The notes beneath the pieces are model-generated. The model did not search any database. It was not told the DNA's origin and saw nothing but the letters and a program-made list of their open reading frames with translations. Position numbers and translations under genes: made by a program. This document shows, in pieces, positions 50,292 through 63,641 of a stretch of DNA of 64,000 nt. The first letter of the stretch is position 1. Each line of letters begins with the position of its first letter. This stretch comes from Alkalicoccus halolimnae (GTDB taxonomy: Bacteria > Bacillota > Bacilli > Bacillales > Salisediminibacteriaceae): positions 434,001 to 498,000 of the forward strand of contig NZ_CP144914.1 in NCBI RefSeq assembly GCF_008014775.2, read 5' to 3'.

Positions 50292-51024
50292 AATATTCAC
50301 CCTCCTTTATCTAAATTACAGAGTCTAAACACTTAACTATATGCTTAGAGAATACCATATTAATTAGAAAAATACACCAATATTTATGGTAATATAATAC
50401 AACAAGGTATAATAATAGTGAAATCTATAAATTTCTAAATGCGAGCCTGATTAGATAATTATGGATTTGGCAGGCATTTATGTCGTATTAATTAAGTGAA
50501 AAATAAACTTTTTAGAATGGCCTCGGTAACAGTTTTTTACAAGTTGATTCCTTACCTTGTAGGTCGTTACGTCTACATATAGATGGGTAGACTGATTTCT
50601 TCCATGAAATATGAAGATTATAACGTGAATCTGTAAGTAAAACGAATACACTTAAGTGATTCATTACCAACGAAACAAAAGACGAAACGGAGATGACTCT
50701 CGAAAATTCAGAAGGTGCTTGAATAAAGAGTGGTGAATCCAGGGTATATTATTCAGGCAAAAGGTAAACCGGAGGAAGCTGAATTTCTGCCTAGTGGATA
50801 AGGGGATATAAACGGATAAGAAATCTCCATAAAGATCTGACTTAATAATTTATTCAGATGATCCAGCATCCATACCTATTTTTTCGTCATTCATAAAGAA
50901 TTGGGCGAAACTTAAGTCAGATAAGGGGAAATATGGATGAGAATAGAGGAGGATAGGGAGGGAAATATCTCTCTATCGGAATAGAAAGTTTCACTATAGT
51001 AAAAATACAGGAGGATTGATTTCC
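50292..51024. other. gene-free AT-rich stretch
   Basis: No gene is supported in these 730 bases. A hairpin ATGCGAGCCTG...CAGGCATTT lies at 50437-50481. Short protein-like tails (for example VVNPGYIIQAKGKPEEAEFL ending at 50799) may be remnants of decayed genes. A GGAGG at 51010-51014 belongs to the next gene. Confidence 0.4.
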
Positions 51025-52059
51025 ATGACAGATGTTCATTATTTCCCGAGATACTCGCAGAAAGAAAATATGGTTACGAATAACACCTTGTTATTATTCA
51101 GCCGTTTGTACCAGAACAGTCCGGCAAAGTTCTCTCTGTTTATCAATTCTATCTTGGAAGATAACGAAAAAGAGTTGAATACATCGGTTCAATTTAAGCA
51201 GCAGGAACGATCCAGCAGCGGTCGAGTGCCGGATGGGATTATAAGCCAGGAAAGCTTTAAAGTGGTCATTGAAACCAAACTTTACAGTCAGCAGAATATT
51301 CCTCAAATTAAAGGACATTTAGACGCTTTTGAAAAAGAAGACAATCAAATATTTCTATGGATCGATAAAGAACCGATTACAGCGACCTATAAAAAGCTAA
51401 TTAACGATGAATTACTTGATTATAATAAAAACAACGGAACGGATATAAAATTTGCTTCCACGACATTTAAAGAAATAGCTCATTCGTTTAAAGATATTCT
51501 TCAGGAATTTGATTTGGAAATGATCGCTTTGATTGATGACTATGAGAAGTTCTGTCACGAATCGGGGCTTGTCGATAATTTAAATAATACGGTGCGTGTC
51601 GTATTAACGGGGAATACCTTCGATGAAAATATAAAGCATAAAATATACTTTCATCCTCAGGATCGTGGATACCAAAACACAAAGTACATCGGGTTATATA
51701 AAGATAAAGCGATCCGGGCAATCGGTAAAATAACCGGTATTGTTGATGCGCAATATGATGAAAACAGCCAGGACTTCGCTTCTTACGAAGATATCCTGGG
51801 CAGTTCTACAAAAACTCGAAAAGATCAAATAAAGCAGATCATACTGGAGTCTAAAGCTAAACACAGTTATCCAGCGGAAGAAGCCAGAAGGTTCTTTTTC
51901 GTAGACGAATACCATGAAACGGAATATATAAAAACATCCAAAGGCGGTATAGCCGGCGTACGGTATTTGGATCTCTCCGAAGTAAAAGGATATAAAGAGA
52001 AAATGAATGCAGAAGAAATTGCAGAATTACTTAAAGGGGAACATTGGGGAATTTTATAG
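51025..52059 (+). CDS. PD-(D/E)XK-type nuclease-like protein
   Basis: A 344-residue cytoplasmic protein. Near residues 67-86 the pattern RVPDGIIS...FKVVIETKLYSQQ gives the D-x(n)-E-x-K active site of PD-(D/E)XK nucleases, followed by a helix with Q (QQNIPQIKGHLDAF). The rest is alpha/beta and not recognised; the second half (FHPQDRGYQNTKYIGLYKD) may contact DNA. It is probably a defence nuclease given the adjacent hsd operon. AGGAGGATTG sets the start at 51025. No partner gene is close, so it may act alone. Confidence 0.62.
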   Translation: MTDVHYFPRYSQKENMVTNNTLLLFSRLYQNSPAKFSLFINSILEDNEKELNTSVQFKQQERSSSGRVPDGIISQESFKVVIETKLYSQQNIPQIKGHLDAFEKEDNQIFLWIDKEPITATYKKLINDELLDYNKNNGTDIKFASTTFKEIAHSFKDILQEFDLEMIALIDDYEKFCHESGLVDNLNNTVRVVLTGNTFDENIKHKIYFHPQDRGYQNTKYIGLYKDKAIRAIGKITGIVDAQYDENSQDFASYEDILGSSTKTRKDQIKQIILESKAKHSYPAEEARRFFFVDEYHETEYIKTSKGGIAGVRYLDLSEVKGYKEKMNAEEIAELLKGEHWGIL

Positions 52060-52255: not shown

Positions 52256-52309
52256 TTGACTTATTGTAATTAATTGTCTATACTCTAACTCAAGATGTAA
52301 CCGGTTACA
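52256..52309 (+). promoter_or_regulatory. promoter and LacI-type operator of the BtpA operon
   Basis: TTGACT (52256-52261), 17-base spacer, TATACT (52279-52284). The perfect palindrome TGTAACCGGTTACA (52296-52309) covers the region just after the start point. The central CCGG and the TGTAA arms are typical for LacI/GalR-family repressors. Confidence 0.85.
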
Positions 52310-52334
52310 CAAATCGACCTGCAGGTGAGAAAAA

Positions 52335-53318
52335 GTGAAAACAATTAGAGATGTAGCGAAGCAAGCGGAAGTTTCCGTAGCAACTGTTTCAAGGGTTGTA
52401 AATAATTCAGGGTACGTTAGTGAAAAGACTCGCAAAAAAGTTATAAACACTATTGAGTTGTTGGGGTATAAGCCAAATTCCGTTGCTCAAAGTCTTTATA
52501 ACAAAAGTTCAAAAACAGTAGGTCTAATTGTTCCTGATATTACAAACCCGTTTTTCCCGGAAATATCGAGAGCTGTTGAGGATGTGATGAATGAAAAAGG
52601 TTACACGGTTATCTTATGCAACAGTGACGCCAGCCCTCAAAAAGAAGAGAATTACTTTGATGTTCTAAGTAGAAAATATATTGATGGCATGATTGTAGTA
52701 ACTAATGAAACTGATACTTCATACCTGGATCATTACAAGCTTCCGATTGTTGCTTTAGACCGGCCTTTTTCAAAACTACCTTCTATATACACTGACAATA
52801 TTTCAGGGGCGGAAATTGCAATGAATCATTTGTATGAATGCGGATGTCAGAAAATTGCGCATATTTGCGGGCCGCGTAATATAGTAAATGCGGTAGAACG
52901 ACTGAACGGTTATAAAAAATCTTTAAACAAACTGAATTTCAACCATCTTCCTATAGTAGTTGATGGAGAATATCAGTGGCGTACGTCAGAAAAATCAGTA
53001 ATGGAGCTCTTAAATGATGATCCATCAATAGATGGAATATTTGCAGGAAATGACATCATGGCTGTTGGAGCTCTAAAAGCAGCTCAAAAACTAGGGGTAT
53101 CGGTTCCAAGTGATTTACAAATCATAGGATTTGACGGTATTGAATTAAGCAAAATGATGGTTCCTTCTTTAACTACTATCCGCCAGCCCTTGGAGGAAAT
53201 AGGCACGTTGGCTGCCCAAACTTTAATATACATGATTGAAGAAGGCAAGCAGCCGAATGCTCTACCCCCCTTTATAGGAAAACTGCAACAGGGGGAAACT
53301 ACGATGATAAAGGAGTAA
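52335..53318 (+). CDS. LacI-family transcriptional repressor
   Basis: A 327-residue repressor with GTG start. The N-terminal helix-turn-helix TIRDVAKQAEVSVATVSRVV and hinge region (YKPNSVAQSL) are followed by a periplasmic-binding-like sensor domain (about 60-325; IVPDITNPFFPEI, GIFAGNDIMAVGALKA, GFDGIELS). It is the first gene of the operon and probably autoregulates it through TGTAACCGGTTACA. The effector is likely the imported sugar or its phosphate. The ribokinase gene follows after four bases. Confidence 0.93.
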   Translation: MKTIRDVAKQAEVSVATVSRVVNNSGYVSEKTRKKVINTIELLGYKPNSVAQSLYNKSSKTVGLIVPDITNPFFPEISRAVEDVMNEKGYTVILCNSDASPQKEENYFDVLSRKYIDGMIVVTNETDTSYLDHYKLPIVALDRPFSKLPSIYTDNISGAEIAMNHLYECGCQKIAHICGPRNIVNAVERLNGYKKSLNKLNFNHLPIVVDGEYQWRTSEKSVMELLNDDPSIDGIFAGNDIMAVGALKAAQKLGVSVPSDLQIIGFDGIELSKMMVPSLTTIRQPLEEIGTLAAQTLIYMIEEGKQPNALPPFIGKLQQGETTMIKE

Positions 53319-53322
53319 ATAA

Positions 53323-54228
53323 GTGAAACCAAAAATAGTTGTAATTGGAAGTATAAATATGGACTTAATAACGGTAGCGGAAAGAATTCCTCAACAAGGG
53401 GAAACCGTTCGAGGAAGCTCATTTTTAACAAAACCTGGCGGGAAAGGTGCTAATCAGGCTGTAGCAGCCTCAAAACTAGGTGCAGACGTTTGTTTCATCG
53501 GTTGTGTTGGAAAGGATTTATTTGGAACAGAAAGTAGAGAAAACCTAGAACACCATGGTATTAAAACAAATAATATGGATAATATAACAAATTGCATGAC
53601 TGGCATCGCCAATGTGTTTTTAACTGATCATGATAACAGGATCATTGTAGTACCTGGAGCAAATGATGAAGTGTCACCAAGCATGATAAGAAAATACGAA
53701 GATGAGATCAAGGATGCAGACTTTTTACTTCTCCAATTGGAAATCCCTATAGTTTCAGTAGAGGTAGCCGCTGACCTTGCTAAAAAACATGGGACTAAAA
53801 CAATACTTAATCCTGCCCCTATTCAACGTCTTTCTGCTTCACTATTAACAAACGTTGATTATATAACACCAAACGAAACAGAGTATGAAGAGCTTGTAAC
53901 TCAAATCGATCCTCAGCTAATTCAAGATAAAGTAATACGGACTAAAGGAGAAAAGGGAGTTTCCTTTTTTAAAAACGGGGAGGAAGTTTTTGTGCCAGCT
54001 TTTCCTGTTGAGGTTATAGATACTACAGGGGCAGGTGATACTTTTATAGGAGCCTTATCTGTAGCTATGGCCGAAAGAAAAACAATCTATCAAGCATGTG
54101 TTTTTGCTAATGCTGCAGCTGCACTGGCTATAACAAAATTAGGAGCACAAGAAGGGATGCCTAAACGAGATGAGGCAGAAGTTTTTTTATCGGATAATAA
54201 TCAAGCCGATGAACAAAAATTTATATAG
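53323..54228 (+). CDS. rbsK: ribokinase-like PfkB kinase (first)
   Basis: A 301-residue cytoplasmic kinase with GTG start after AAAGGAG. PfkB signatures are GGKGANQAVAASKLGAD near 40-56 and DTTGAGDTFIGAL near 240-252, with the catalytic Asp in GAGD; NPAP in the middle (KTILNPAPIQ) is usual in ribokinases. It would phosphorylate a pentose-like substrate. A second PfkB kinase is encoded later in the operon, so at least one may have a different substrate. The ribokinase name is by family resemblance only. Confidence 0.85.
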   Translation: MKPKIVVIGSINMDLITVAERIPQQGETVRGSSFLTKPGGKGANQAVAASKLGADVCFIGCVGKDLFGTESRENLEHHGIKTNNMDNITNCMTGIANVFLTDHDNRIIVVPGANDEVSPSMIRKYEDEIKDADFLLLQLEIPIVSVEVAADLAKKHGTKTILNPAPIQRLSASLLTNVDYITPNETEYEELVTQIDPQLIQDKVIRTKGEKGVSFFKNGEEVFVPAFPVEVIDTTGAGDTFIGALSVAMAERKTIYQACVFANAAAALAITKLGAQEGMPKRDEAEVFLSDNNQADEQKFI

Positions 54229-54274
54229 TGATTTTAAGTTATAAAATAGTATTTATTTTTTATTTAAATTTTTA

Positions 54275-54288
54275 TGTAACCGTTTACA
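54275..54288 (+). promoter_or_regulatory. second LacI-type operator
   Basis: TGTAACCGTTTACA differs from the operator at 52296-52309 by one base. It lies 22 bases before the BtpA start codon in the only sizeable gap (82 bases) of the operon. It may form a repression loop with the first operator or mark an internal promoter. Confidence 0.75.
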
Positions 54289-54310
54289 TATCGAAATGGA
54301 GGAATGACAA

Positions 54311-55174
54311 ATGAGTGAGTACGTATTTCCACCTAAAGAAAATTATTTAGATCGAATTTATGGAGTGAAAAAACCAGTGATCGGGATGGTTCATCTGCGA
54401 CCATTGCCAGGTGCCCCGCATTTCCAAAGTGATGGGATGCAAGAAGCAATAGATTGGGCACTCAGAGATGCTGAAGCTCTTAAAAAGGGTGGCGTAGACG
54501 GCATTATAATCGAAAATGCTTGGGATATTCCTTTTTCAAAACCAGAAGATATAGGGTATGAAACAGTTGCTGCCATGACTGCGATTGCCGAGAGATTAAA
54601 ATTGGAATGTGATTTACCGATCGGAATTAATTGTCTTGCAAATGGAGCCATACAGGGGTTGGCAGTTGCCAAAGCTGCGGAATTACCGTTTGTGCGAGTT
54701 AATCAATGGGTGAATGCTTATGTAGCGAATGAAGGTCTTGTAGAAGGTCCTTCGGCAAAAGCCATGCGTTATCGCAGCTTGATTAAGGGAGAAGAAATTA
54801 AAGTATTCACAGATGTCCATGTTAAGCATGGAAGCCATTCTATTGTAGCAGATCGATCTTTAGCTGATCAGACTCATGATAATATATTTTTCGACAGTGA
54901 TGTACTAATTGCTACAGGAACTAGAACTGGTAATGAAACAGAGCTGGAAGAAGTTAGGGGGATAAAAGACAATACTACTTTACCAGTTATTATTGGCAGC
55001 GGAATGACAGAAAATAATGCAGAGAAAATTCTTCAAGTCGCAGATGGGTGTATAATTGGAAGTTATTTGAAGGAGAATCATCAATGGTGGAAACCGGTGG
55101 AGCAGAGCAGGGTAGAAAGATTTATGAAAGCCGTTAACAAACTTAGATATGAGCAGATCTCCCATGAAAAATAA
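54311..55174 (+). CDS. BtpA/SgcQ-family TIM-barrel protein
   Basis: A 287-residue cytoplasmic protein covering the whole BtpA family: IGMVHLRPLPGAP at the start, DGIIIENAWDIPF, GINCLANGAIQGLAVAKAA, then FTDVHVKHGSH and GSYLKENHQWWKPVE. BtpA was first linked to photosystem I in cyanobacteria, but in non-photosynthetic bacteria (E. coli SgcQ) the genes lie in sugar-catabolism loci, where the protein is a putative sugar-processing or nucleoside-related enzyme. GGAGG precedes the ATG. It overlaps the second kinase gene. The exact reaction is unknown. Confidence 0.85.
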   Translation: MSEYVFPPKENYLDRIYGVKKPVIGMVHLRPLPGAPHFQSDGMQEAIDWALRDAEALKKGGVDGIIIENAWDIPFSKPEDIGYETVAAMTAIAERLKLECDLPIGINCLANGAIQGLAVAKAAELPFVRVNQWVNAYVANEGLVEGPSAKAMRYRSLIKGEEIKVFTDVHVKHGSHSIVADRSLADQTHDNIFFDSDVLIATGTRTGNETELEEVRGIKDNTTLPVIIGSGMTENNAEKILQVADGCIIGSYLKENHQWWKPVEQSRVERFMKAVNKLRYEQISHEK

Positions 55175-56072
55175 ACTACTGGTTGCAGGTACGGTAAACA
55201 TTGATTTATCAGCAGGGTTACCACGTTTTCCAAGTACCGGGGAAACCTTAGCTTCCACTTCCTATTCAGAAAACATTGGCGGCAAAGCTGCTAATCAAGC
55301 TGTCGCAGCAAATAGATTTGGGGCGGAAGTAGTGTTTGCAGGCAAAGTAGGAGAAGACGCTTTTGGAAAAAAAGTTTTTGAATTCTTCCAGAAAGAAGGT
55401 ATCGACACTAGATATCTATATAAAAGCGAAACCGTTAATACAGGAAATTCCTTTATTTTAGTAGATACACATGGAGATAACATAATCGTAACTAATTTAC
55501 TAGCCAATCAAGAGTTAACCAAAGAAGAAATTTTTGGTGGTGTATTTGAAACTAAACCAGAAGCTGTATTACTACAATTGGAAATAGAAAATGAAGAGAT
55601 TGAAGCAGTTTTAAATACAATAAGTAAAAGAGGTATTCCGCTTTTTGTGAATTTAGCTCCGGTTAAGTATCTATCTAAAGAAGCAATGACTCGCATAGAT
55701 TACCTTATTATAAATGAAGTTGAAGCGGGGCAGTTGGCGGAAATGAAAGTTACTACAGAAGAAAAAGCGGAAGAAGCTGCAGAAATAATTTACCAAAAAA
55801 CCGGAAGTGTCATTATTATGACTCTTGGAGGAAAAGGTGTCTTAGTAAAAGAGCGAGGCTCAAAGACTTGGTTTGAAGTTCCAAAATTAGAAGCTGTGGA
55901 CACAACTGCAGCTGGAGACTGCTTTTGTGGAGTTCTCGCAGCTGAATGGTTACAGGAAAAAGATTTACATCAAGCTGTCAGATCGGCTATTAAAGCAGCT
56001 TCTAAATCTGTATTAACCAGAGGGTCTGTTCAGTCTCTACCTTATAAAGAAGAAATTCAATTGAGAGGTTAA
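55149..56072 (+). CDS. PfkB-family carbohydrate kinase (second)
   Basis: A 307-residue kinase related to the rbsK product. GGKAANQAVAANRFGAE is motif 1; motif 2 is DTTAAGDCFCGVL, in which Ala replaces the first Gly of GAGD but the catalytic Asp stays. It overlaps the end of the BtpA gene by 26 bases, or 11 if the Met at 55164 (MKNKLLVAGTVNID) is the real start; no clear ribosome binding site separates these. It likely acts after the BtpA protein or on an alternative sugar. Confidence 0.82.
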   Translation: MSRSPMKNKLLVAGTVNIDLSAGLPRFPSTGETLASTSYSENIGGKAANQAVAANRFGAEVVFAGKVGEDAFGKKVFEFFQKEGIDTRYLYKSETVNTGNSFILVDTHGDNIIVTNLLANQELTKEEIFGGVFETKPEAVLLQLEIENEEIEAVLNTISKRGIPLFVNLAPVKYLSKEAMTRIDYLIINEVEAGQLAEMKVTTEEKAEEAAEIIYQKTGSVIIMTLGGKGVLVKERGSKTWFEVPKLEAVDTTAAGDCFCGVLAAEWLQEKDLHQAVRSAIKAASKSVLTRGSVQSLPYKEEIQLRG

Positions 56073-56103
56073 CCATCACTAAAATTTATTAGGAGGTATT
56101 AAC

Positions 56104-57150
56104 ATGAAAAAAAGAAATATGGTTCTGTTCGCTGCTATTGGATCAACCTTTACGTTGCTAGCTGCCTGTGGTGAAGTTGACAACGAGAGTTTAAATGAGG
56201 AAACGGAAGCTTCGTCAAACAATGGAGGCAATAATAGTGCCGAAGCTGATTTGGAAGAAGATGTTGCAGTTGAAGCTGGAGAGGATGCTCCTACTATTGG
56301 AATGACAGTAATAAACCAGGAAGCTTGGTTTTTTACAGAGATGGTTAGGGGAGCAGAAGAAGCTGCAGAAGAGTTAGGAGTGAACTTAGCTGTTTTTAAC
56401 GCGAATAACGATACAGTAGATCAGTACAATGGTGCAGAAGATTATATCAATTCAGGTGTTGATGCTCTTGTTATTAATGCAATCGATGTAGAAGCAATGG
56501 ATCCAATAGTGGAAAGCGCGGAAGAAGAAGGTATTCCAGTAATATCTATCGATTCGGTCATTGAAAACGAAGGAGTTGATGTTCAGATAGGGGTGGATAA
56601 TTACGAATCTTCTGTAAAACTCGGAGAATATTTTAATAATTACATGGAAGAAGAGTGGGGAGAAGAAGCTATCGAAATGGGGGCAGTAGGAGCACTGAAT
56701 TCTCCAATTCAAATTAACCGTCAAGATGGTTTTATGGATACTATCCTTGAAGATGACCAAGTAGACTTAGTTAATACAGTAGATGGAGAAAATGTTCAGG
56801 AGAGAGCTCTTTCAGCTACAGAAGATTTATTTACTGCAAATCCTAATCTAAACGCTGCGTTTGCAACAGGCGAACCAGCATTCATAGGCATGGTTTCAGG
56901 CGTGAGATCACAACAAGCCCAAGATTCTATAAAACTTTTCGGGTGGGACCTAAGCGAACAAGTTATCGAGGGAATTGACGAAGGATTCGTGGAAGCTGTC
57001 GTGCAGCAGCATCCGGATGAATATGGGGCGGCTGCCATTGAAGCGGCTATTTCGTTAAACGATGGAGAAGAAGTAGAGGAAGAGATTGATATCCCAGCAT
57101 CTATTGTAACGGAAGATAATGTTGAAGATTTTCGTTACTTGTTCGAATAA
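56104..57150 (+). CDS. sugar ABC transporter substrate-binding lipoprotein
   Basis: A 348-residue lipoprotein: signal peptide with lipobox LLAAC near residue 22, an acidic linker to about 60, then an RbsB-type type I periplasmic-binding fold (TIGMTVINQEAWFFTEMVRG, DALVINAIDVEAMDPIV, IPVISIDS, GQ-like region replaced by GVDNYESSVKLGE). It captures the substrate outside the cell for the permease and ATPase that follow. AGGAGG precedes the ATG. The ligand is probably a pentose, nucleoside or related polyol; sequence alone cannot tell. Confidence 0.9.
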   Translation: MKKRNMVLFAAIGSTFTLLAACGEVDNESLNEETEASSNNGGNNSAEADLEEDVAVEAGEDAPTIGMTVINQEAWFFTEMVRGAEEAAEELGVNLAVFNANNDTVDQYNGAEDYINSGVDALVINAIDVEAMDPIVESAEEEGIPVISIDSVIENEGVDVQIGVDNYESSVKLGEYFNNYMEEEWGEEAIEMGAVGALNSPIQINRQDGFMDTILEDDQVDLVNTVDGENVQERALSATEDLFTANPNLNAAFATGEPAFIGMVSGVRSQQAQDSIKLFGWDLSEQVIEGIDEGFVEAVVQQHPDEYGAAAIEAAISLNDGEEVEEEIDIPASIVTEDNVEDFRYLFE

Positions 57151-57175
57151 AAATGAAGAATAAGGAGGTCATGAA

Positions 57176-57925
57176 ATGAGTGATAATAAAATAGAAATGC
57201 GCGGAATTGAAAAATCCTTCGGGGCGGTTAAACCGCTTCGGGGGGTGGATCTTCATTTAAAAGAAGGAGAATGTCTTGGACTTCTTGGAGATAATGGTGC
57301 TGGTAAGTCTACATTAATGAAAATTCTAAGTGGAGTAGTCATTCCTGATAAAGGATCATTTTCTTTTGAAGGACGCACAGTAAAAATTTCAAACCCTCGT
57401 GATGCTAAAGATTTGAAAATCGAAACTATTTTCCAGGATTTATCTCTATGTGACACTTTGAATGTTGCAAGTAATATGTTTCTCGGAAGAGAGCCGGTCA
57501 AAAAAGGACGCTTGATTGACCACAAAAATATGCATGAAAAAGCAAAAGCAGAACTTAATAAGTTGAAAATAAACATATCATCAACGCGCTTAAAAGTACA
57601 AAATATGTCAGGGGGGCAGCGACAAGCAGTCGCTATAGCAAGAGCTATGGCTTTTCGTCCAAAAGTGCTGATCATGGATGAGCCTACCGCAGCTCTTGGG
57701 GTAAAGGAAGTAAATATGGTGTTGAACCTCATCAATACCATTAAGGAACAAGGGGTTAGCGTTATATTGATCACTCATAGACTGCAAGACCTTTTTGAAG
57801 TCTGTGACCGGCTGATGGTTCTGCATGAAGGCAAATGTATTGATGATCGTTCAATTGACGAATTTACATTGGAAACGATAATTCAGTCAATTATGGGTAA
57901 TCCCCAGGGGGTGCAAACAATATGA
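57176..57925 (+). CDS. sugar ABC transporter ATP-binding protein (single NBD)
   Basis: A 249-residue ATPase with Walker A GDNGAGKST near 39-47, Q-loop IFQD, signature MSGGQRQ and Walker B VLIMDEPTAALG. It has only one nucleotide-binding domain, whereas RbsA/MglA/XylG ATPases have two fused. This resembles the FrcA arrangement of the Rhizobium fructose transporter, so the working transporter would contain two copies. AAGGAGG precedes the ATG, and it overlaps the permease by four bases. Confidence 0.92.
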   Translation: MSDNKIEMRGIEKSFGAVKPLRGVDLHLKEGECLGLLGDNGAGKSTLMKILSGVVIPDKGSFSFEGRTVKISNPRDAKDLKIETIFQDLSLCDTLNVASNMFLGREPVKKGRLIDHKNMHEKAKAELNKLKINISSTRLKVQNMSGGQRQAVAIARAMAFRPKVLIMDEPTAALGVKEVNMVLNLINTIKEQGVSVILITHRLQDLFEVCDRLMVLHEGKCIDDRSIDEFTLETIIQSIMGNPQGVQTI

Positions 57926-58932
57926 ATCAAACGAAAATAGCTAATAATACGGAAGCTAAAAGAGAGATACAAATAGGGCAAAATTGGAAAGAATGGGCAG
58001 TAGAGCATAAACAGATTTTAAGCATTTTTGGGATATTAATAGCTATTACGTTCAGCTTCGCGGTTTTGACAGATTCTTTCCTCACTTCTAATAACGCTTT
58101 GAATTTGATAATGCAGTTAGCACCAAACCTAATTGTCGCAGTAGCTATGACCTTTGTTATCACAACTGGTGGTATTGACTTGTCGGTGGGTTCTATTCTT
58201 GCCCTTGCCAGTGCTTTGACGGCTGTTTTGTTAAGTGCAGGATTTGCTACACCCGTGGTTCTTTTACTAGTGATCATGGCAGGTATATTGATGGGAAGCA
58301 TCAATGGTTATATAGTAGCTTACCATGCAATACCACCTCTAATTGTAACACTTGCTGCGATGCTCTATGTTCGAGGGCTGGCACTGTTAATAACAGGTGG
58401 ATATTCTGTTGCTATTGCCTCGGATAGTGGGCTGCTAACTGTTGGAATAGGAACTTTTCTCGGAATCCCTGTACCAGCAATTTTAGCAATATTGATTATG
58501 GTCATAGGAATAATCGCCTTGCGTCATACTAGATACGGTACTTATGTGACGGGAATTGGGGCTAATGAAGAAGCTGTGCGCCGATCGGGAGTAAACACTA
58601 AAACTGTTAAGTTGTTTACGTACATGTTTAGTGGAGGAGCAGCTGCATTGGCTGGTCTGATCATCGCTTCACGTCTTGGATCAGGTTCTTCAAATATTGG
58701 ACTGATGTTTGAACTTGATATTATAGCTGCTGTAGTTTTAGGAGGCACTGCACTATTTGGAGGAGCTGGTACAATTATTGGGTCTCTTATCGGGGTTACT
58801 ATCATTGGAGTTATAAATAACGGATTAACACTTATGCAAGTTTCTCCATATGTTATTCAAATTGTGGAAGGTATAGTCTTACTAATTGCAGTTATAGTTA
58901 ATATCAGAGTGTTTGGCCGCAAACGTATGTAG
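57922..58932 (+). CDS. sugar ABC transporter permease (RbsC-like)
   Basis: A 336-residue membrane protein with about nine or ten helices. The family region GGIDLSVGSILALASAL (about 75-92) and GANEEAVRRSGVNTKTVKLFTY, the ATPase-contact loop, identify it as an RbsC/XylH-type permease. The N-terminal 35 residues are cytoplasmic. ATGA overlap with the ATPase gene indicates translational coupling. With the preceding two genes it forms a complete importer. Confidence 0.93.
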   Translation: MNQTKIANNTEAKREIQIGQNWKEWAVEHKQILSIFGILIAITFSFAVLTDSFLTSNNALNLIMQLAPNLIVAVAMTFVITTGGIDLSVGSILALASALTAVLLSAGFATPVVLLLVIMAGILMGSINGYIVAYHAIPPLIVTLAAMLYVRGLALLITGGYSVAIASDSGLLTVGIGTFLGIPVPAILAILIMVIGIIALRHTRYGTYVTGIGANEEAVRRSGVNTKTVKLFTYMFSGGAAALAGLIIASRLGSGSSNIGLMFELDIIAAVVLGGTALFGGAGTIIGSLIGVTIIGVINNGLTLMQVSPYVIQIVEGIVLLIAVIVNIRVFGRKRM

Positions 58933-58950
58933 TTTTAAGGAGGTGTGAAT

Positions 58951-59985
58951 ATGCCAGAAGTTCAAACAGTTACTGGTCTTATTCCAGTTGAGAATTTAGG
59001 TATTACTCTGATGCATGAACATATATTTGTGGACAGAAGACATTTATGGAAGAAACCACAAGAAGTGGAGGATTCGTTTGCTTATGCTCCAGTTTCATTG
59101 TCGATTGTAAACGAATTAAAGCATACTCCCTACGGAAACCTTGATAACAATCATTATACTGACTTAGAAGAATCTTCTCAGGAATTAGATTATTTCAAAA
59201 GTGAAGGTGGAGGCAGTGTAGTAGATGTAACCATTCCAGGGATTGGTCGCGATCCGGAGAAGTTAAAACAAGTTTCAGAGAATACAGAGCTTCCTGTCAT
59301 TATGGGATGTGGATACTATTTGGAACCTACTTTTCCTCCAGGAGTTAAAGAAGCTTCTAAAGAACAAATACGTGACTGGATACTTCAAGATATATACGAA
59401 GGTGTAGGTCCTGAAAAAATTAAAGCAGGAATTATAGGCGAAATAGGTATCAGTCCATATAAGACAGCGGCAGAAGTGAAAGTACTCAGAGGCGCAGCTA
59501 TGGCTCAACGTGAATCTGGTCGTGTGTTAACTATTCACATGCCAGGATGGGAGCGGTACGGTCATGAAGTGCTGGATATCGTGGAAGAAGAGGGAGGAGA
59601 TATTGACTTGGTTATTCTGGATCACATGAACCCAAGTCACGAAGATATCAGCTATCAAACCTCTCTTGCAGAAAGAGGTGCCTATCTCGAATACGATATG
59701 ATAGGTATTGAATTACTTTTTCCAGAAGGACAATCTCCTTCCGATGAACAAAGTGCACAAGCTATTTGTGAATTATTAGATCGAGGATTTGAAAAATCTC
59801 TACTTCTCTCACAAGATGTGTTTCTGAAGTCACTTTTAAGAAAATATGGAGGAGGTGGCTTTAGTCATCTTCTTAGACATTTTGTTCCACGATTAAAAAG
59901 AATGGGAGTGAGCGAAAAAGAAATTCATACTATGCTGGAAAACAATCCTCAGCAATTGTTTTCAAAAGCTTCGGTGAAAGTATGA
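58951..59985 (+). CDS. phosphotriesterase homologue (binuclear metal hydrolase)
   Basis: A 344-residue TIM-barrel amidohydrolase of the phosphotriesterase (PHP/YhfV) family. Metal ligands are visible: H22 and H24 in MHEHIF, a bridging acid E164 in GEIG (Glu instead of the carbamylated Lys of true phosphotriesterases), H196 in TIHMPG, H225 in LDHMNPSH and D289 in SQDVF. Family members include lactonases and unknown phosphoesterases. AAGGAGG lies seven bases before the ATG at 58951; the GTG at 58945 overlaps it. It overlaps the peptidase gene by four bases. Confidence 0.9.
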   Translation: MPEVQTVTGLIPVENLGITLMHEHIFVDRRHLWKKPQEVEDSFAYAPVSLSIVNELKHTPYGNLDNNHYTDLEESSQELDYFKSEGGGSVVDVTIPGIGRDPEKLKQVSENTELPVIMGCGYYLEPTFPPGVKEASKEQIRDWILQDIYEGVGPEKIKAGIIGEIGISPYKTAAEVKVLRGAAMAQRESGRVLTIHMPGWERYGHEVLDIVEEEGGDIDLVILDHMNPSHEDISYQTSLAERGAYLEYDMIGIELLFPEGQSPSDEQSAQAICELLDRGFEKSLLLSQDVFLKSLLRKYGGGGFSHLLRHFVPRLKRMGVSEKEIHTMLENNPQQLFSKASVKV

Positions 59986-61061
59986 GTACTCTTTACGAAG
60001 ATTGGGTCGATTTCGCTCACCTCGGCCCTAAACCTGCCGGCAGTAAAATGAATGAAGCAGCTTCACAGTGGTTAGAAGACAGTTTGAAGCAAGAAGGGAT
60101 TACTTCACATCAACATAGATTCGACACCACAGTATGGACATTAAAAAATTTTGAGCCATTAAAGATGGTTGAAAGCGATCAAATTTTAGAATCTTATCCT
60201 GCTGTTGGAAGTAGTTCTGGGAATATCAAACAAGGTTTAATTGAACGCAGTGGAACAACAAATATATGGCATATGTACCAATGGCCCCGTTATACCGTAA
60301 AAAATCATGTGGGGAAAGTAATAGCTCATATTACTGCTCGACCGGACGGGCCGCCTTTAAGTCAAACGTTATTAGAAACATGGAATTACCCACACTTGTT
60401 TGTTGGAGAAGATACTTTTCGAGAGTGGGAAGCATTGATTAATTCTGGAAAAACTCCAACAGTATCATTTCAAATTGAAACCGAAATAACGAAAAAGGAA
60501 CTGATTAATGTACACGGTATTATAAAAGGGACTAATTCAGACCTTCCCCCGTTAGTTATTGGTGCCCATTTTGATACCATGTACAATACTATTGGAGCGT
60601 ACGATAATGCTTCTGGAACTATGGTACTCCTTCATTTAATAAAACACCTTTTTGATAAGCCTATTGAACGTGATATACATTATGTTTTTTTTAATGCAGA
60701 AGAGCTTTTGCTGGCAGGAAGTAAAGCTTTCGTAAATGATTTTTACAGTGAAAAAGATTCACTCAACATTATGATTAATATAGAAGGGATGGGCAGAGGC
60801 TCACAAGTAGATATCTGGTCAACAAATCCAAATAAAATTAAAAATTTGGAGCTTTTAAAAAGTAATTTTGATAGTTTACATCAGATCACACCTCCTTTGG
60901 CAGGTTCCGATCATCAACCTTTCGTGGATGTCGGTCATCCAGCAATGATGCTTACAGTAAATGATCAGGAGATTATACACAGTAGAAGAGATGTACCACA
61001 AAGTGAGATGGTCAAAAACATGAAAATATTATATTCTTATTTAGAAAAAATAACAGTCTAA
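59982..61061 (+). CDS. M28-family zinc metallopeptidase
   Basis: A 359-residue cytoplasmic protein (no signal peptide) with the di-zinc M28 aminopeptidase core in the second half: H196 and D198 in GAHFDT, D208 in AYDNASG, E240/E241 in FNAEE, E268 in NIEGMG and H333 in IIHSRRD. The family also includes glutaminyl cyclases and carboxypeptidases. The first 170 residues include an inserted domain. It is translationally coupled to the phosphotriesterase homologue. In this sugar-type operon it may remove an aminoacyl or amide group from the imported compound. Confidence 0.88.
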   Translation: MSTLYEDWVDFAHLGPKPAGSKMNEAASQWLEDSLKQEGITSHQHRFDTTVWTLKNFEPLKMVESDQILESYPAVGSSSGNIKQGLIERSGTTNIWHMYQWPRYTVKNHVGKVIAHITARPDGPPLSQTLLETWNYPHLFVGEDTFREWEALINSGKTPTVSFQIETEITKKELINVHGIIKGTNSDLPPLVIGAHFDTMYNTIGAYDNASGTMVLLHLIKHLFDKPIERDIHYVFFNAEELLLAGSKAFVNDFYSEKDSLNIMINIEGMGRGSQVDIWSTNPNKIKNLELLKSNFDSLHQITPPLAGSDHQPFVDVGHPAMMLTVNDQEIIHSRRDVPQSEMVKNMKILYSYLEKITV

Positions 61062-61075
61062 AGGGTGGATAGAAT

Positions 61076-61816
61076 ATGAAGCTATTGTTTGTTGGAGAAT
61101 CTTGGACTAAACATACAATTCATGTAAAAGGATTTGATTCTTTTACTACTTCAGAGTACGAAGAAGGTGCTGGAGCTTTTCTTCGAGCTATGAAGGAATA
61201 TAAAGTAGATGTGACTTATATAAGAGCCCACGAAATCGATGAAAAATTCCCTTCCACCTATGAAGAAATTAAAGCTTACGACGCTGTGATATTAAGTGAT
61301 ATAGGAAGTAATTCTTTCCTTTTAGCGAATCAGACTTTTAATCATTCACAAAGATCTATAGATAAATTACAGTTAATTGAGAAGTATGTTCGGTCAGGAG
61401 GAGGCTTTGGCATGATAGGTGGGTATATGTCATTCCAAGGTATTGATGGGAAAGCGAAGTTTAAAAATACAGTAATTGAAAAGTTACTTCCAGTTTTTTT
61501 AGAAAAAACTGACGATAGAGTAGAAAAACCAGAGGGGGTTAATCCTAAAATAGAAAAACAACATGAAATTTTAAATGAAGTTGAGAATAACTGGCCACAT
61601 TTTCTAGGATATAATGAACTAAAGCTCAAACCACATGCAGAATTAATTCTGTCAATTAACGAAGATCCCCTTGTAGCGTTGGGAGAACATGGGGAAGGGA
61701 GAAGTTTTATTTTTTCAAGTGATCTCGCGCCTCACTGGGGACCAAAAGAATTTGTAGAATGGCAAAGCTATCCTGTATTTTGGAAAAATATCGTTTCATG
61801 GGTAGGGAAAGCATAA
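61076..61816 (+). CDS. ThuA/glutamine amidotransferase-like protein
   Basis: A 246-residue protein with a class I glutamine-amidotransferase-like fold: KLLFVGESWTKHTIHVKGFD at the start, AYDAVILSDIGSNSF, then RSGGGFGMIGGYMSFQG at the nucleophile position, and LVALGEHGEGRSFIFSSDLAPHWG at the end. The expected Cys at the nucleophile elbow is missing (GMIGGYMS), so it is likely not a glutaminase; ThuA-like sugar-processing is more plausible. The ATG follows AAGGGTGG, 15 bases after the peptidase. It is the last gene of the operon. Confidence 0.78.
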   Translation: MKLLFVGESWTKHTIHVKGFDSFTTSEYEEGAGAFLRAMKEYKVDVTYIRAHEIDEKFPSTYEEIKAYDAVILSDIGSNSFLLANQTFNHSQRSIDKLQLIEKYVRSGGGFGMIGGYMSFQGIDGKAKFKNTVIEKLLPVFLEKTDDRVEKPEGVNPKIEKQHEILNEVENNWPHFLGYNELKLKPHAELILSINEDPLVALGEHGEGRSFIFSSDLAPHWGPKEFVEWQSYPVFWKNIVSWVGKA

Positions 61817-61954
61817 AACCTTTAGTACTATTTTTACTAATTAGTTTTACGTCTTCTATCTTAAACTGAACGACAATATCAAGCCGGGAAATGATTACAC
61901 TCACCTGCCTTGTCAAAACGAGCAGGGGAAAAAAGCCTTTTAAATAATTTCAAG

Positions 61955-61990
61955 CAGCCGTCGAAGGATCCTTCGACGGCTGTTTCCTTT
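61955..61990 (+). terminator. terminator of the BtpA operon
   Basis: CAGCCGTCGAAGGATCCTTCGACGGCTG is a perfect 28-base palindrome followed by TTTCCTTT, 140 bases after the last gene. Confidence 0.8.
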
Positions 61991-62229: not shown

Positions 62230-62309
62230 ACATGATTGAGAGAGGTTGGAAGTTTTTCCTTTTTGTAAGGAGTTTTTTGGGATATGATGGTAGAAATGAA
62301 GGGGAAGGA

Positions 62310-63641
62310 ATGATAACAGTGACCTTTTCAGAACGTCTTGATGAAGCACGTGTACTGTTAAACGGAAAAGACAAAATACAAGAGGAGCTACGCCAGCTCA
62401 TTCATGAATACTCGGAGCTCGAACAAAACTACACTGATAAAAAGAAGCATCTTGAAGCCGACTTTCAAGCTTATTCCAACCGTATACACGACCAAATGGA
62501 AGTGAGTGGCCGCTACTTGGAGGAGTTGGAAAATAAGATTACCAAAAGACAAGAGCTGCTTGCCAGCCTCGGTGATGTGTATGATAAACGGAAGGTAAAC
62601 ATTCACAAAAATACGCAGGACGTTACAAAACGCTATGAAAAAGCTTCCCGCTTATCGTCAAATTACCTCCGTCTTACGTCACTTCAGACTCGCCTAATTG
62701 ATAGTTTTCTTCAATACATCGAACGGTCATCGGCTCCACTACTATACACCACCCCTTCCGTGGACATCCATGACCCTGAGATTAATGACTTGGCGAACCG
62801 CTTTCTACAAAAGCAACAGGACCTGCCTGGTCTTTTTCATGAAGATATGGTCGATTTTCTTGAAAAAAGCAACCTGTCCAATCCATCTGCTGCACAGTTA
62901 TACCGGTTTCACAGTTACCTTGGCAAATGCGGATACGATTTCGGTAACGACTTGATAGATTTTGTTTATTTTATGCGGGGTAAAGCACGTCAGGAAATCC
63001 GTCGCAGGTTTGACCCTTATTTTTCAGATCTCACCTCAGTGCCTGCCGATACACTATCTAGAAACAGCGTTTTCCTGGACTACCTGAAAATTACCGGCGA
63101 GGAATTTGCATATCGCCCTGATCACCTCTTATGGCTCTCGTGCTTTCTTTGTGATGTCGAGTTATCTTATGGCTATTTTAGTATCGATCAGATCTGCGAA
63201 CGCATCAATCAGCAGATAGAAGAGTATCAAACACACGAATGGGTACGGCGTTTCTCATCCGAAAATTCGACTTTTTTCGATGCCAACTCTATCGATGATT
63301 TAGACGGACGCCAATTCGAATTCTTTGTTTCCGATCTGCTTTCCTGCATCGGCTACATGACCGAGGTAACAAAAGCATCAGGCGACCAGGGGATGGATAT
63401 TTTGGCTCGGAAAAACGGTATTCGCTATGCTGTTCAGACTAAAAAATCGTCCTCTCCTGTGGGCAATAAAGCCGTACAGGAAGCGCTTCATGCCAAGTCT
63501 TATTACAAAACAGACGAAGCGATTGTTTTAACCAACAATGTATTTACCCCAAGCGCTGTAAATTCGTCAAAAGAAACAGATGTAATCTTGTGGGATCGAG
63601 GTCAGTTACTCAAGTTCATTGATCAGGCTAATAACATATAG
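62310..63641 (+). CDS. coiled-coil protein with C-terminal Mrr-type restriction nuclease domain
   Basis: A 443-residue cytoplasmic protein. Residues about 10-125 form a long coiled coil (QEELRQLIHEYSELEQNYTD, KHLEADFQ, LEELENKITKRQELL). The middle (130-320) is helical and not recognised. The C-terminal 120 residues form an Mrr-like nuclease: RQFEFFVSDLLSCIGY (E near 336), GDQGMDILA (D near 361) and YAVQTKKSS (QxK near 376-378). It is likely a type IV or defence nuclease that senses through the coiled-coil region. The start at 62310 follows AAGGGGAAGG; 26 more codons are open upstream. Confidence 0.8.
   Translation: MITVTFSERLDEARVLLNGKDKIQEELRQLIHEYSELEQNYTDKKKHLEADFQAYSNRIHDQMEVSGRYLEELENKITKRQELLASLGDVYDKRKVNIHKNTQDVTKRYEKASRLSSNYLRLTSLQTRLIDSFLQYIERSSAPLLYTTPSVDIHDPEINDLANRFLQKQQDLPGLFHEDMVDFLEKSNLSNPSAAQLYRFHSYLGKCGYDFGNDLIDFVYFMRGKARQEIRRRFDPYFSDLTSVPADTLSRNSVFLDYLKITGEEFAYRPDHLLWLSCFLCDVELSYGYFSIDQICERINQQIEEYQTHEWVRRFSSENSTFFDANSIDDLDGRQFEFFVSDLLSCIGYMTEVTKASGDQGMDILARKNGIRYAVQTKKSSSPVGNKAVQEALHAKSYYKTDEAIVLTNNVFTPSAVNSSKETDVILWDRGQLLKFIDQANNI

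Follow-up and report, generated by a model that had tools for sequence, protein, structure and literature searches.

What does a bacterium consume with an operon that joins a sugar importer and two PfkB-type kinases to a BtpA-family protein, a phosphotriesterase (PTE)-family hydrolase, an M28-family hydrolase and a GATase1-like protein (GAT)? The operon lies in a 64,000-nucleotide stretch of the Alkalicoccus halolimnae genome (contig NZ_CP144914.1, positions 434,001 to 498,000), which we call the window. It consists of ten open reading frames (ORFs) at 52335-61816, all on the + strand, separated by 4-82 bp or, in three cases, overlapping (by 26, 4 and 4 bp), an arrangement that an earlier note on this DNA had already described. 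Genes were identified by the best Pfam model per protein above its cut-off, and NCBIfam models were also scored. Our reading is that this is a LacI-controlled catabolic operon in which an imported ribose conjugate, with the ribose N-linked to an amide-bearing part, is broken down to ribose 5-phosphate; we give it about an even chance of being right. Import, the classes of kinase and hydrolase, and regulation are predicted from sequence, and we infer the substrate, the bond cut by the PTE protein and the roles of GAT and BtpA. Literature searches, mostly over open papers, found no description of this gene set, and the earlier note had likewise known of no pathway with this combination.

Conservation of the gene set

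The gene set spans Bacillota, Actinomycetota and Pseudomonadota and comprises the importer, PTE, GAT, usually a ribokinase and often BtpA. Because it recurs in other phyla, its grouping in the window goes beyond chance. A BtpA scan of named genomes yielded 46 loci. BtpA stands with a kinase, binding protein, ATPase, permease, PTE and GAT in Bacillaceae (L008-L012, L014) and in Actinomycetota (L043, L045, L046, L050). The same set is found on annotated plasmids of Shinella, Rhizobium, Pannonibacter, Aureimonas, Ponticoccus, Agrobacterium and Pantoea, and a Klebsiella plasmid record carries it with GAT broken. Locus L064 holds a psymB copy of the cluster. Across 25 loci plus the window, six of the proteins diverged together (r 0.92-0.97), and 0 of 500 permutations gave values as high.

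Genome samples give the frequencies. Among 150 Rhizobiales genomes, PTE is present in 12, GAT in 17 and BtpA in 12, with PTE and GAT together in 11, PTE and BtpA in 9 and all three in 9. In nine of these 11 genomes the two genes are no more than 4.3 kb apart, and in two they are on different contigs; the co-occurrence has p ~1e-11, or 6.6e-10 without the two genomes that were reached through BtpA loci. Among 197 actinobacterial genomes, PTE and GAT occur in the identical 6, including the sample centre G315, and their starts are at most 1.1 kb apart in five of these and 5.2 kb apart in one. GAT is carried by 6 of 299 Bacilli genomes (the window's own included) and by 4 of 197 Enterobacterales genomes (sample centre included).

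The neighbours of GAT were counted within 9 kb in 64 loci, a set that was not dereplicated and much of which was fetched through BtpA, PTE or GAT. A PfkB-type kinase is near in 52, an amide-type hydrolase in 52, BtpA in 36 and a nucleoside hydrolase in 8; the last two are never found together, and 20 loci have neither. The 36 loci with both PTE and GAT include 33 with a kinase, 26 with a second amide-type hydrolase, 24 with BtpA, 5 with a nucleoside hydrolase, none with both of these and 7 with neither. GAT hits obtained independently of BtpA were examined at 24 of 29 loci (the hits of G442, G389, G455 and G409 and the short locus of G258 being excluded); these have an amide-type hydrolase in 19, a kinase in 14, LacI in 14, PTE in 13, BtpA in 5 and a nucleoside hydrolase in 6. 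Two Rhizobiales loci (L092, L093) consist solely of LacI, importer, PTE, GAT and ribokinase, and a BtpA at E <= 1e-40 is absent from their genomes. Four more, from Proteus and three others (L065, L066, L096, L097), combine a kinase and GAT with PTE and a YdcZ-type transporter, the last tested with Pfam in L065, L096 and L097. The core of the set thus looks like importer, PTE, GAT and ribokinase, with BtpA an extra, as judged from these gene neighbourhoods. The extras that vary among bacteria are BtpA with its kinase, nucleoside hydrolase, TenA, M20, M28, carbamoylase and amidase. The earlier note had held that its reading would fall if the last three genes were transcribed separately and not conserved with the transporter elsewhere; PTE and GAT are so conserved.

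The kinase beside GAT carries a DeoR-type regulator domain where tested (L059, L096). The first of these is an E. coli plasmid locus (L059:6899-13853), in which kinase, GAT, proline iminopeptidase and an APC permease lie between two IS26 copies. Of 5426 E. coli genomes, 1 contained GAT DNA.

Importer, kinases and the link to ribose

The importer is made up of a lipoprotein substrate-binding protein (56104-57150; Peripla_BP_4, lipobox read from the N terminus), a single-domain sugar-type ATP-binding cassette (ABC) ATPase (57176-57925; one ABC_tran domain) and an RbsC-like ABC permease (57922-58932; BPD_transp_2). Neither of the first two reaches the equivalog level of the ribose system: the binding protein scores 104.6 bits on the RbsB model (cut-off 337), and the ATPase scores 217 bits on the two-domain RbsA model (cut-off 745), with a match spanning 5-239 of 501. 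The nearest solved relative of the binding protein is 5hsg. A group of 38 relatives, chosen by a score above 200, has the motifs IN..ALFF, VGALNS.IQ, ATGEPA..G and GWDL in common, and 36 other binding proteins are without them. Where the PTE scores above 230, 36 of 37 loci have a binding protein scoring above 200 against that of the window; only 2 of 29 other loci with any binding protein have one of this type.

The first kinase, PfkB1 (53323-54228; Pfam PfkB), passes the ribokinase model TIGR02152 at 325.8 bits (cut-off 299.65). PfkB2 (55149-56072; Pfam PfkB) is ribokinase-like and falls below the same cut-off at 262.8 bits. Two other kinase identities were tried and rejected: for PfkB1 and PfkB2, pseudouridine kinase (NF007355) scores 32 and 47.2 bits against a cut-off of 540, and fructoselysine 6-kinase (NF007321) scores 54.7 and 49.4 bits against 247. 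Two further kinases of the host genome pass the ribokinase cut-off, one of them adjoining the genome's only RbsD, at 3211381.

Regulation also points to ribose. The first gene of the operon (52335-53318) encodes an RbsR-like LacI-family repressor (Pfam LacI; 243.7 bits on the RbsR model, below its cut-off of 382), and it is preceded by an exact LacI-type operator palindrome, TGTAACCGGTTACA, at 52296-52309 (no strand assigned). The operator core TAACCGGTTA was counted 9 times, in 6 of the 111 loci, where shuffled loci would give 0.95. Besides the window, it is found upstream of LacI in L022, L100 and L101, upstream of GAT in L014, and twice upstream of the host genome's own rbs operon, LacI-ribokinase-RbsD (L078). 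The variant TGTAACCGNTTACA brings in one more locus, L012.

These same features would suit an operon that degrades ribose itself or an ordinary (modified) nucleoside, with PTE, M28 and GAT handling side products or housekeeping. The ribokinase, the RbsR-like repressor, the RbsB/RbsC-like importer, the operator common to the rbs operon and the sister clusters with a nucleoside hydrolase (see below) all speak for it. However, the PTE-GAT pairing is fixed in three phyla, and the host already owns an rbs operon. The binding-protein clade also has conserved motifs of its own, and several aligned sites set it apart from 2ioy, a solved ribose-binding relative. We consider this explanation unlikely.

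The PTE and M28 hydrolases

The PTE-family metal hydrolase (58945-59985; PF02126, 220.2 bits) has its best solved relatives in 3k2g (311.4 bits), 3rhg (212.6) and 9efa (189.5), and stands nearest to 3k2g and the mammalian protein PTER. E. coli PHP comes next at 120 bits, and no lactonase or organophosphatase exceeds about 101. The metal ligands H24, H26, E166, H198 and H227 are present in 43 of 43 aligned rows, and D291 in 41, the other two being gaps. As given in PMC11374699, R204, R233 and H300 of mouse PTER dock N-acetyltaurine. When mapped by hand on the alignment, these three residues correspond to G201, P230 and F293 of the window protein, which therefore lacks the N-acetyltaurine hydrolase residues of PTER. 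The replacements are themselves nearly invariant among the cluster proteins: G201 in 42 of 43, P230 in 43 of 43 and F293 in 40 of 43 (one Ala, two gaps). The alignment thus suggests a PTER-like kind of site, but for a different and uniform substrate.

The earlier note had called this protein a lactonase-like hydrolase, and that part of its account did not survive. The phospho-furanose lactonase model NF045706 gives 60.6 bits against a cut-off of 630, and the E. coli-type PHP model NF007373 gives 138.3 against 486. The broader proposal of a sugar-lactone or ester pathway, with PTE as a lactonase or esterase and the kinases acting on a sugar acid or ester, draws on the occurrence of lactonases in the PTE family and on 3rhg (Pmi1525), which we take to be a promiscuous carboxylate esterase. 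It has to contend with that lactonase score, with 3k2g, 3rhg and 9efa as the closest solved structures, and with a set of ten genes that includes neither a sugar dehydrogenase nor a dehydratase. We regard it as quite improbable.

The M28-family peptidase/amidase-type hydrolase (59982-61061; Peptidase_M28 PF04389, 98 bits, cut-off 21.3) shows no signal peptide on inspection by eye. It is present in the operon, as the earlier note said, but its co-occurrence is not conserved: since an M28 gene is near GAT in only 3 of the 64 loci, it is exchangeable and no fixed part of the gene set.

GAT and BtpA

GAT (61076-61816) belongs to the GATase1_like family PF07090 at 326.6 bits, and to this extent its naming as a GATase-like protein holds. 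The catalytic part of the comparison does not. At position 113, where the motif of the family places the class-I nucleophile, 65 of 68 rows have Met and none has Cys; position 114 has a single Cys. On this placement GAT lacks the nucleophile-elbow cysteine of class-I glutamine amidotransferases. In one other column, half or more of 24 rows have Cys. The solved relatives 3soz (STM1381) and 2gk3 have a Cys in SDCSPHW, where the window protein has Leu. No fusion to a partner enzyme domain was seen in the precomputed Pfam labels of the 120 relatives listed out of 3973. Fifteen of these 120 also bear the label PF06283, presumably ThuA. An apparent joint frame of GAT and nucleoside hydrolase in L088 is actually two reading frames.

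The third gene (54311-55174) encodes a BtpA-family protein of phosphate-barrel type, with 253.2 bits on PF03437 (cut-off 30) and 242.2 on TIGR00259 (cut-off 153.4). It is not the photosystem I biogenesis equivalog, scoring 197.4 on NF045918 against a cut-off of 400. Its subfamily has the motifs ENxxDxPF, RVNQWVNAYVANEG and DVHVKHGxH; RVNQWVNAYVANEG and DVHVKHG are missing from E. coli SgcQ (29% identical) and from two distant BtpA copies. Conserved residues of BtpA include E68, N69, D72, N131, E141, D168, K172 and R205. A search with the BtpA profile finds tryptophan synthase alpha (5ey5, named LBCATS-a, 5.5e-9; 3tha, 5.4e-7), GGGP synthase (2.2e-5) and, as weak matches, HisF (0.05) and TrpF (0.063). 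These matches to phosphate-binding TIM barrels are confined to the C-terminal half, positions ~184-272, and are consistent with a phosphate site, without proving one. BtpA-family and PF07090 proteins are common, and we know of no reaction assigned to them outside cyanobacterial BtpA, which is reportedly the subject of Skotnicova et al. 2024.

Some clusters have a nucleoside hydrolase in the place of BtpA. In L080-L083, the gene right after GAT, at the place that BtpA takes elsewhere, is a nucleoside hydrolase (PF01156; 339-341 bits for the two tested), and in L084 one lies near PTE-GAT. These five PTE-GAT loci, which are all actinobacterial, have no BtpA at the locus. In L103, GAT is flanked by a penicillin-V-amidase-like gene and a NupC-type transporter.

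Eight plasmid loci (L055, L056, L060, L063, L070, L071, L072 and L075) have TenA after BtpA. TenA together with M20 deacylases is the arrangement of formylaminopyrimidine salvage, so these islands might serve to salvage a thiamin-type pyrimidine. We think this very improbable for the operon. There is no TenA in the window, the TenA of L055 scores 43.2 against a thiaminase II cut-off of 130 (and was rejected as such), and the ribokinase and ribose-type importer would be left unexplained.

Several other neighbourhoods of these genes were observed. On plasmids L058 and L067, GAT-LacI-ribokinase stands beside phosphoribosyl pyrophosphate (PRPP) synthetase and nicotinate phosphoribosyltransferase genes. 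In these two loci and L084, GAT and a ribokinase-type kinase are found among nicotinate phosphoribosyltransferase, LLM monooxygenase and NIPSNAP genes, and there ribose may serve as a recyclable handle. Two orphan genes of ~246 and ~109 aa, HypX and HypY, directly follow BtpA in L071:10831-11902 and also in L024-L030, L095 and L108. They occur in GntR-PfkB-BtpA clusters with another ABC importer, beside other BtpA copies than that of the window, and gave no Pfam or PDB match. On a Mesorhizobium plasmid (L074:1272-9822), a distant BtpA copy has neighbours whose annotations read PurC-like, PurH and phosphoribosylanthranilate isomerase.

A proposed route

In the ribose-conjugate reading, the binding protein and ABC importer would take up the conjugate. 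The PTE protein and M28, both seemingly cytoplasmic, would cut amide or other C-N bonds. GAT would then act on the freed ribosyl intermediate, either a ribosylamine or a form of ribose, and the ribokinase would make ribose 5-phosphate after the GAT step. In a parallel route, PfkB2 would phosphorylate the riboside, and BtpA, as a phosphate-barrel enzyme, would cleave or rearrange the N-ribosyl 5-phosphate. LacI would sense ribose or an intermediate. A more specific version can be worded, which we hold only tentatively and think rather unlikely to be right in full. In it, N-acyl-ribosylamines would be split by PTER-like enzymes; the cysteine-less PF07090 protein would supply the ribokinase, either by hydrolysing ribosylamine or as a ribose anomerase; and the BtpA subfamily, replacing the nucleoside hydrolase, would act on N-(5-phosphoribosyl) compounds as a glycosidase or isomerase.

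Several observations weigh against the ribose-conjugate reading. The mutual exclusion of BtpA and nucleoside hydrolase, which share a locus in 0 of 64, comes from the set of loci whose selection was described above; in the 24 GAT-chosen loci, the counts of 5 and 6 are not significant (0.20, by hand). Within the 36 PTE-GAT loci the exclusion has P 0.002, yet all five hydrolase loci are actinobacterial. Two Rhizobiales genomes (G380, G421) have PTE and GAT with no BtpA at E <= 1e-40, and BtpA clusters without PTE or GAT are common. Three loci (L085, L087, L091) have GAT with no listed hydrolase or kinase nearby, and an allose-type cluster (L061) has GAT without amide hydrolases. Finally, the annotated names of the hydrolases are no proof of amide chemistry, and the identity of the conjugate and all the activities are predictions.

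The earlier note had the compound imported, trimmed by a peptidase/amidase and a lactonase-like hydrolase, then phosphorylated and broken down by BtpA and the kinases. Import, hydrolysis, kinases and BtpA as one catabolic unit have stood up; the lactonase role and M28 as a fixed part have not. In three phyla, the BtpA and PF07090 families are now linked with a ribokinase, one importer clade and a metal hydrolase whose pocket is uniform. The compounds to be searched are thereby narrowed to a single testable class, and PTER, the human relative, is a precedent for the chemistry. A ribosyl-amide pathway, if true, would be widespread and undescribed, and two orphan families would gain a function together.

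Control sites, composition and flanks

The operon is preceded by a promoter-like site at 52256-52284 (+; -35 TTGACT, -10 TATACT, 17-bp spacer) that matches at 10 of 12 positions. It is among four such matches in the 50 listed, where shuffles give a mean of 39.4 (sd 5.0), and is weak evidence when taken alone. The TGTAACCGGTTACA operator is directly downstream of its -10. A second operator-like site, TGTAACCGTTTACA, with one mismatch to TGTAACCGGTTACA, is at 54275-54288 (no strand assigned), upstream of the btpA ribosome-binding site and inside the operon's largest gap, the 82 bp before btpA. Since only 0.10 sites like TGTAACCGGTTACA are expected in the window, this gap may plausibly contain a second LacI-controlled start. 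A promoter-like site with a LacI operator is thus present, as the earlier note proposed, but its being the only one is doubtful. The terminator of that note corresponds to a strong terminator-like hairpin of 15 pairs at 61952-61985 (+); no longer one is among the 11 hairpins of this kind (mean in shuffles 8.0).

The operon is AT-rich, as had been stated, with 38.3% G+C against 45.8% in positions 1-48000 of the window. Among 40 relatives searched, 7 of them from the same genus, no other has the PTE protein (E <= 1e-40). A gene with an Mrr restriction-nuclease domain lies downstream at 62232-63641, and a 347-aa ORF with no Pfam match lies upstream at 51016-52059; the flanking genes perhaps belong to an island with defence genes. 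The G+C contrast, the absence of PTE in relatives and the Mrr-domain neighbour fit an acquired island. The operon was probably acquired by transfer, with loss in the relatives as the alternative. In the BtpA tree, the window protein groups with Bacillaceae loci that also have PTE.

Comparison with known systems

The actinobacterial plasmid clusters L058 and L067 resemble the operon in having GAT-LacI-ribokinase, as if recycling ribose, but have no PTE, BtpA or ABC importer beside GAT. They may be like pyridine degradation clusters, a likeness that our literature searches did not find. The E. coli sgc region consists of SgcQ, the M42 peptidase SgcX, a phosphotransferase system (PTS), the epimerase SgcE and a DeoR regulator. 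It is alike in that its BtpA-family protein has as neighbours a gene of a metallopeptidase family and an importer that phosphorylates sugar. It differs in having a PTS rather than an ABC importer and a distant BtpA homolog in SgcQ, and there is no PTE or GAT in the sgc stretch examined.

In the PsuK/PsuG pathway for pseudouridine and the FrlD/FrlB pathway for fructoselysine, a PfkB kinase acts first and a second enzyme then splits the phosphorylated sugar conjugate. The operon would share this logic of kinase then cleavage with those pathways, but its kinases are far under the model cut-offs, and neither PsuG nor FrlB is among the ten genes.

Mammalian PTER hydrolyzes N-acetyltaurine (PMC11374699) and N-acetyl-beta-alanine (PMC13311154). 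The window protein is on the same side of the PTE family and keeps the metal ligands, including the Glu, but differs at all three of the docking residues given above. Another likeness in plan is to the ribose operon RbsDACBK/RbsR, which has a LacI regulator, a ribokinase, an RbsB/RbsC-type importer and, in this host, a common operator. The window operon departs from it in having a single-domain ATPase and no RbsD, and adds BtpA, a second kinase, PTE, M28 and GAT. It is an operon of the LacI/ABC sugar-catabolic type with a new combination of genes, rather than a new kind of system.

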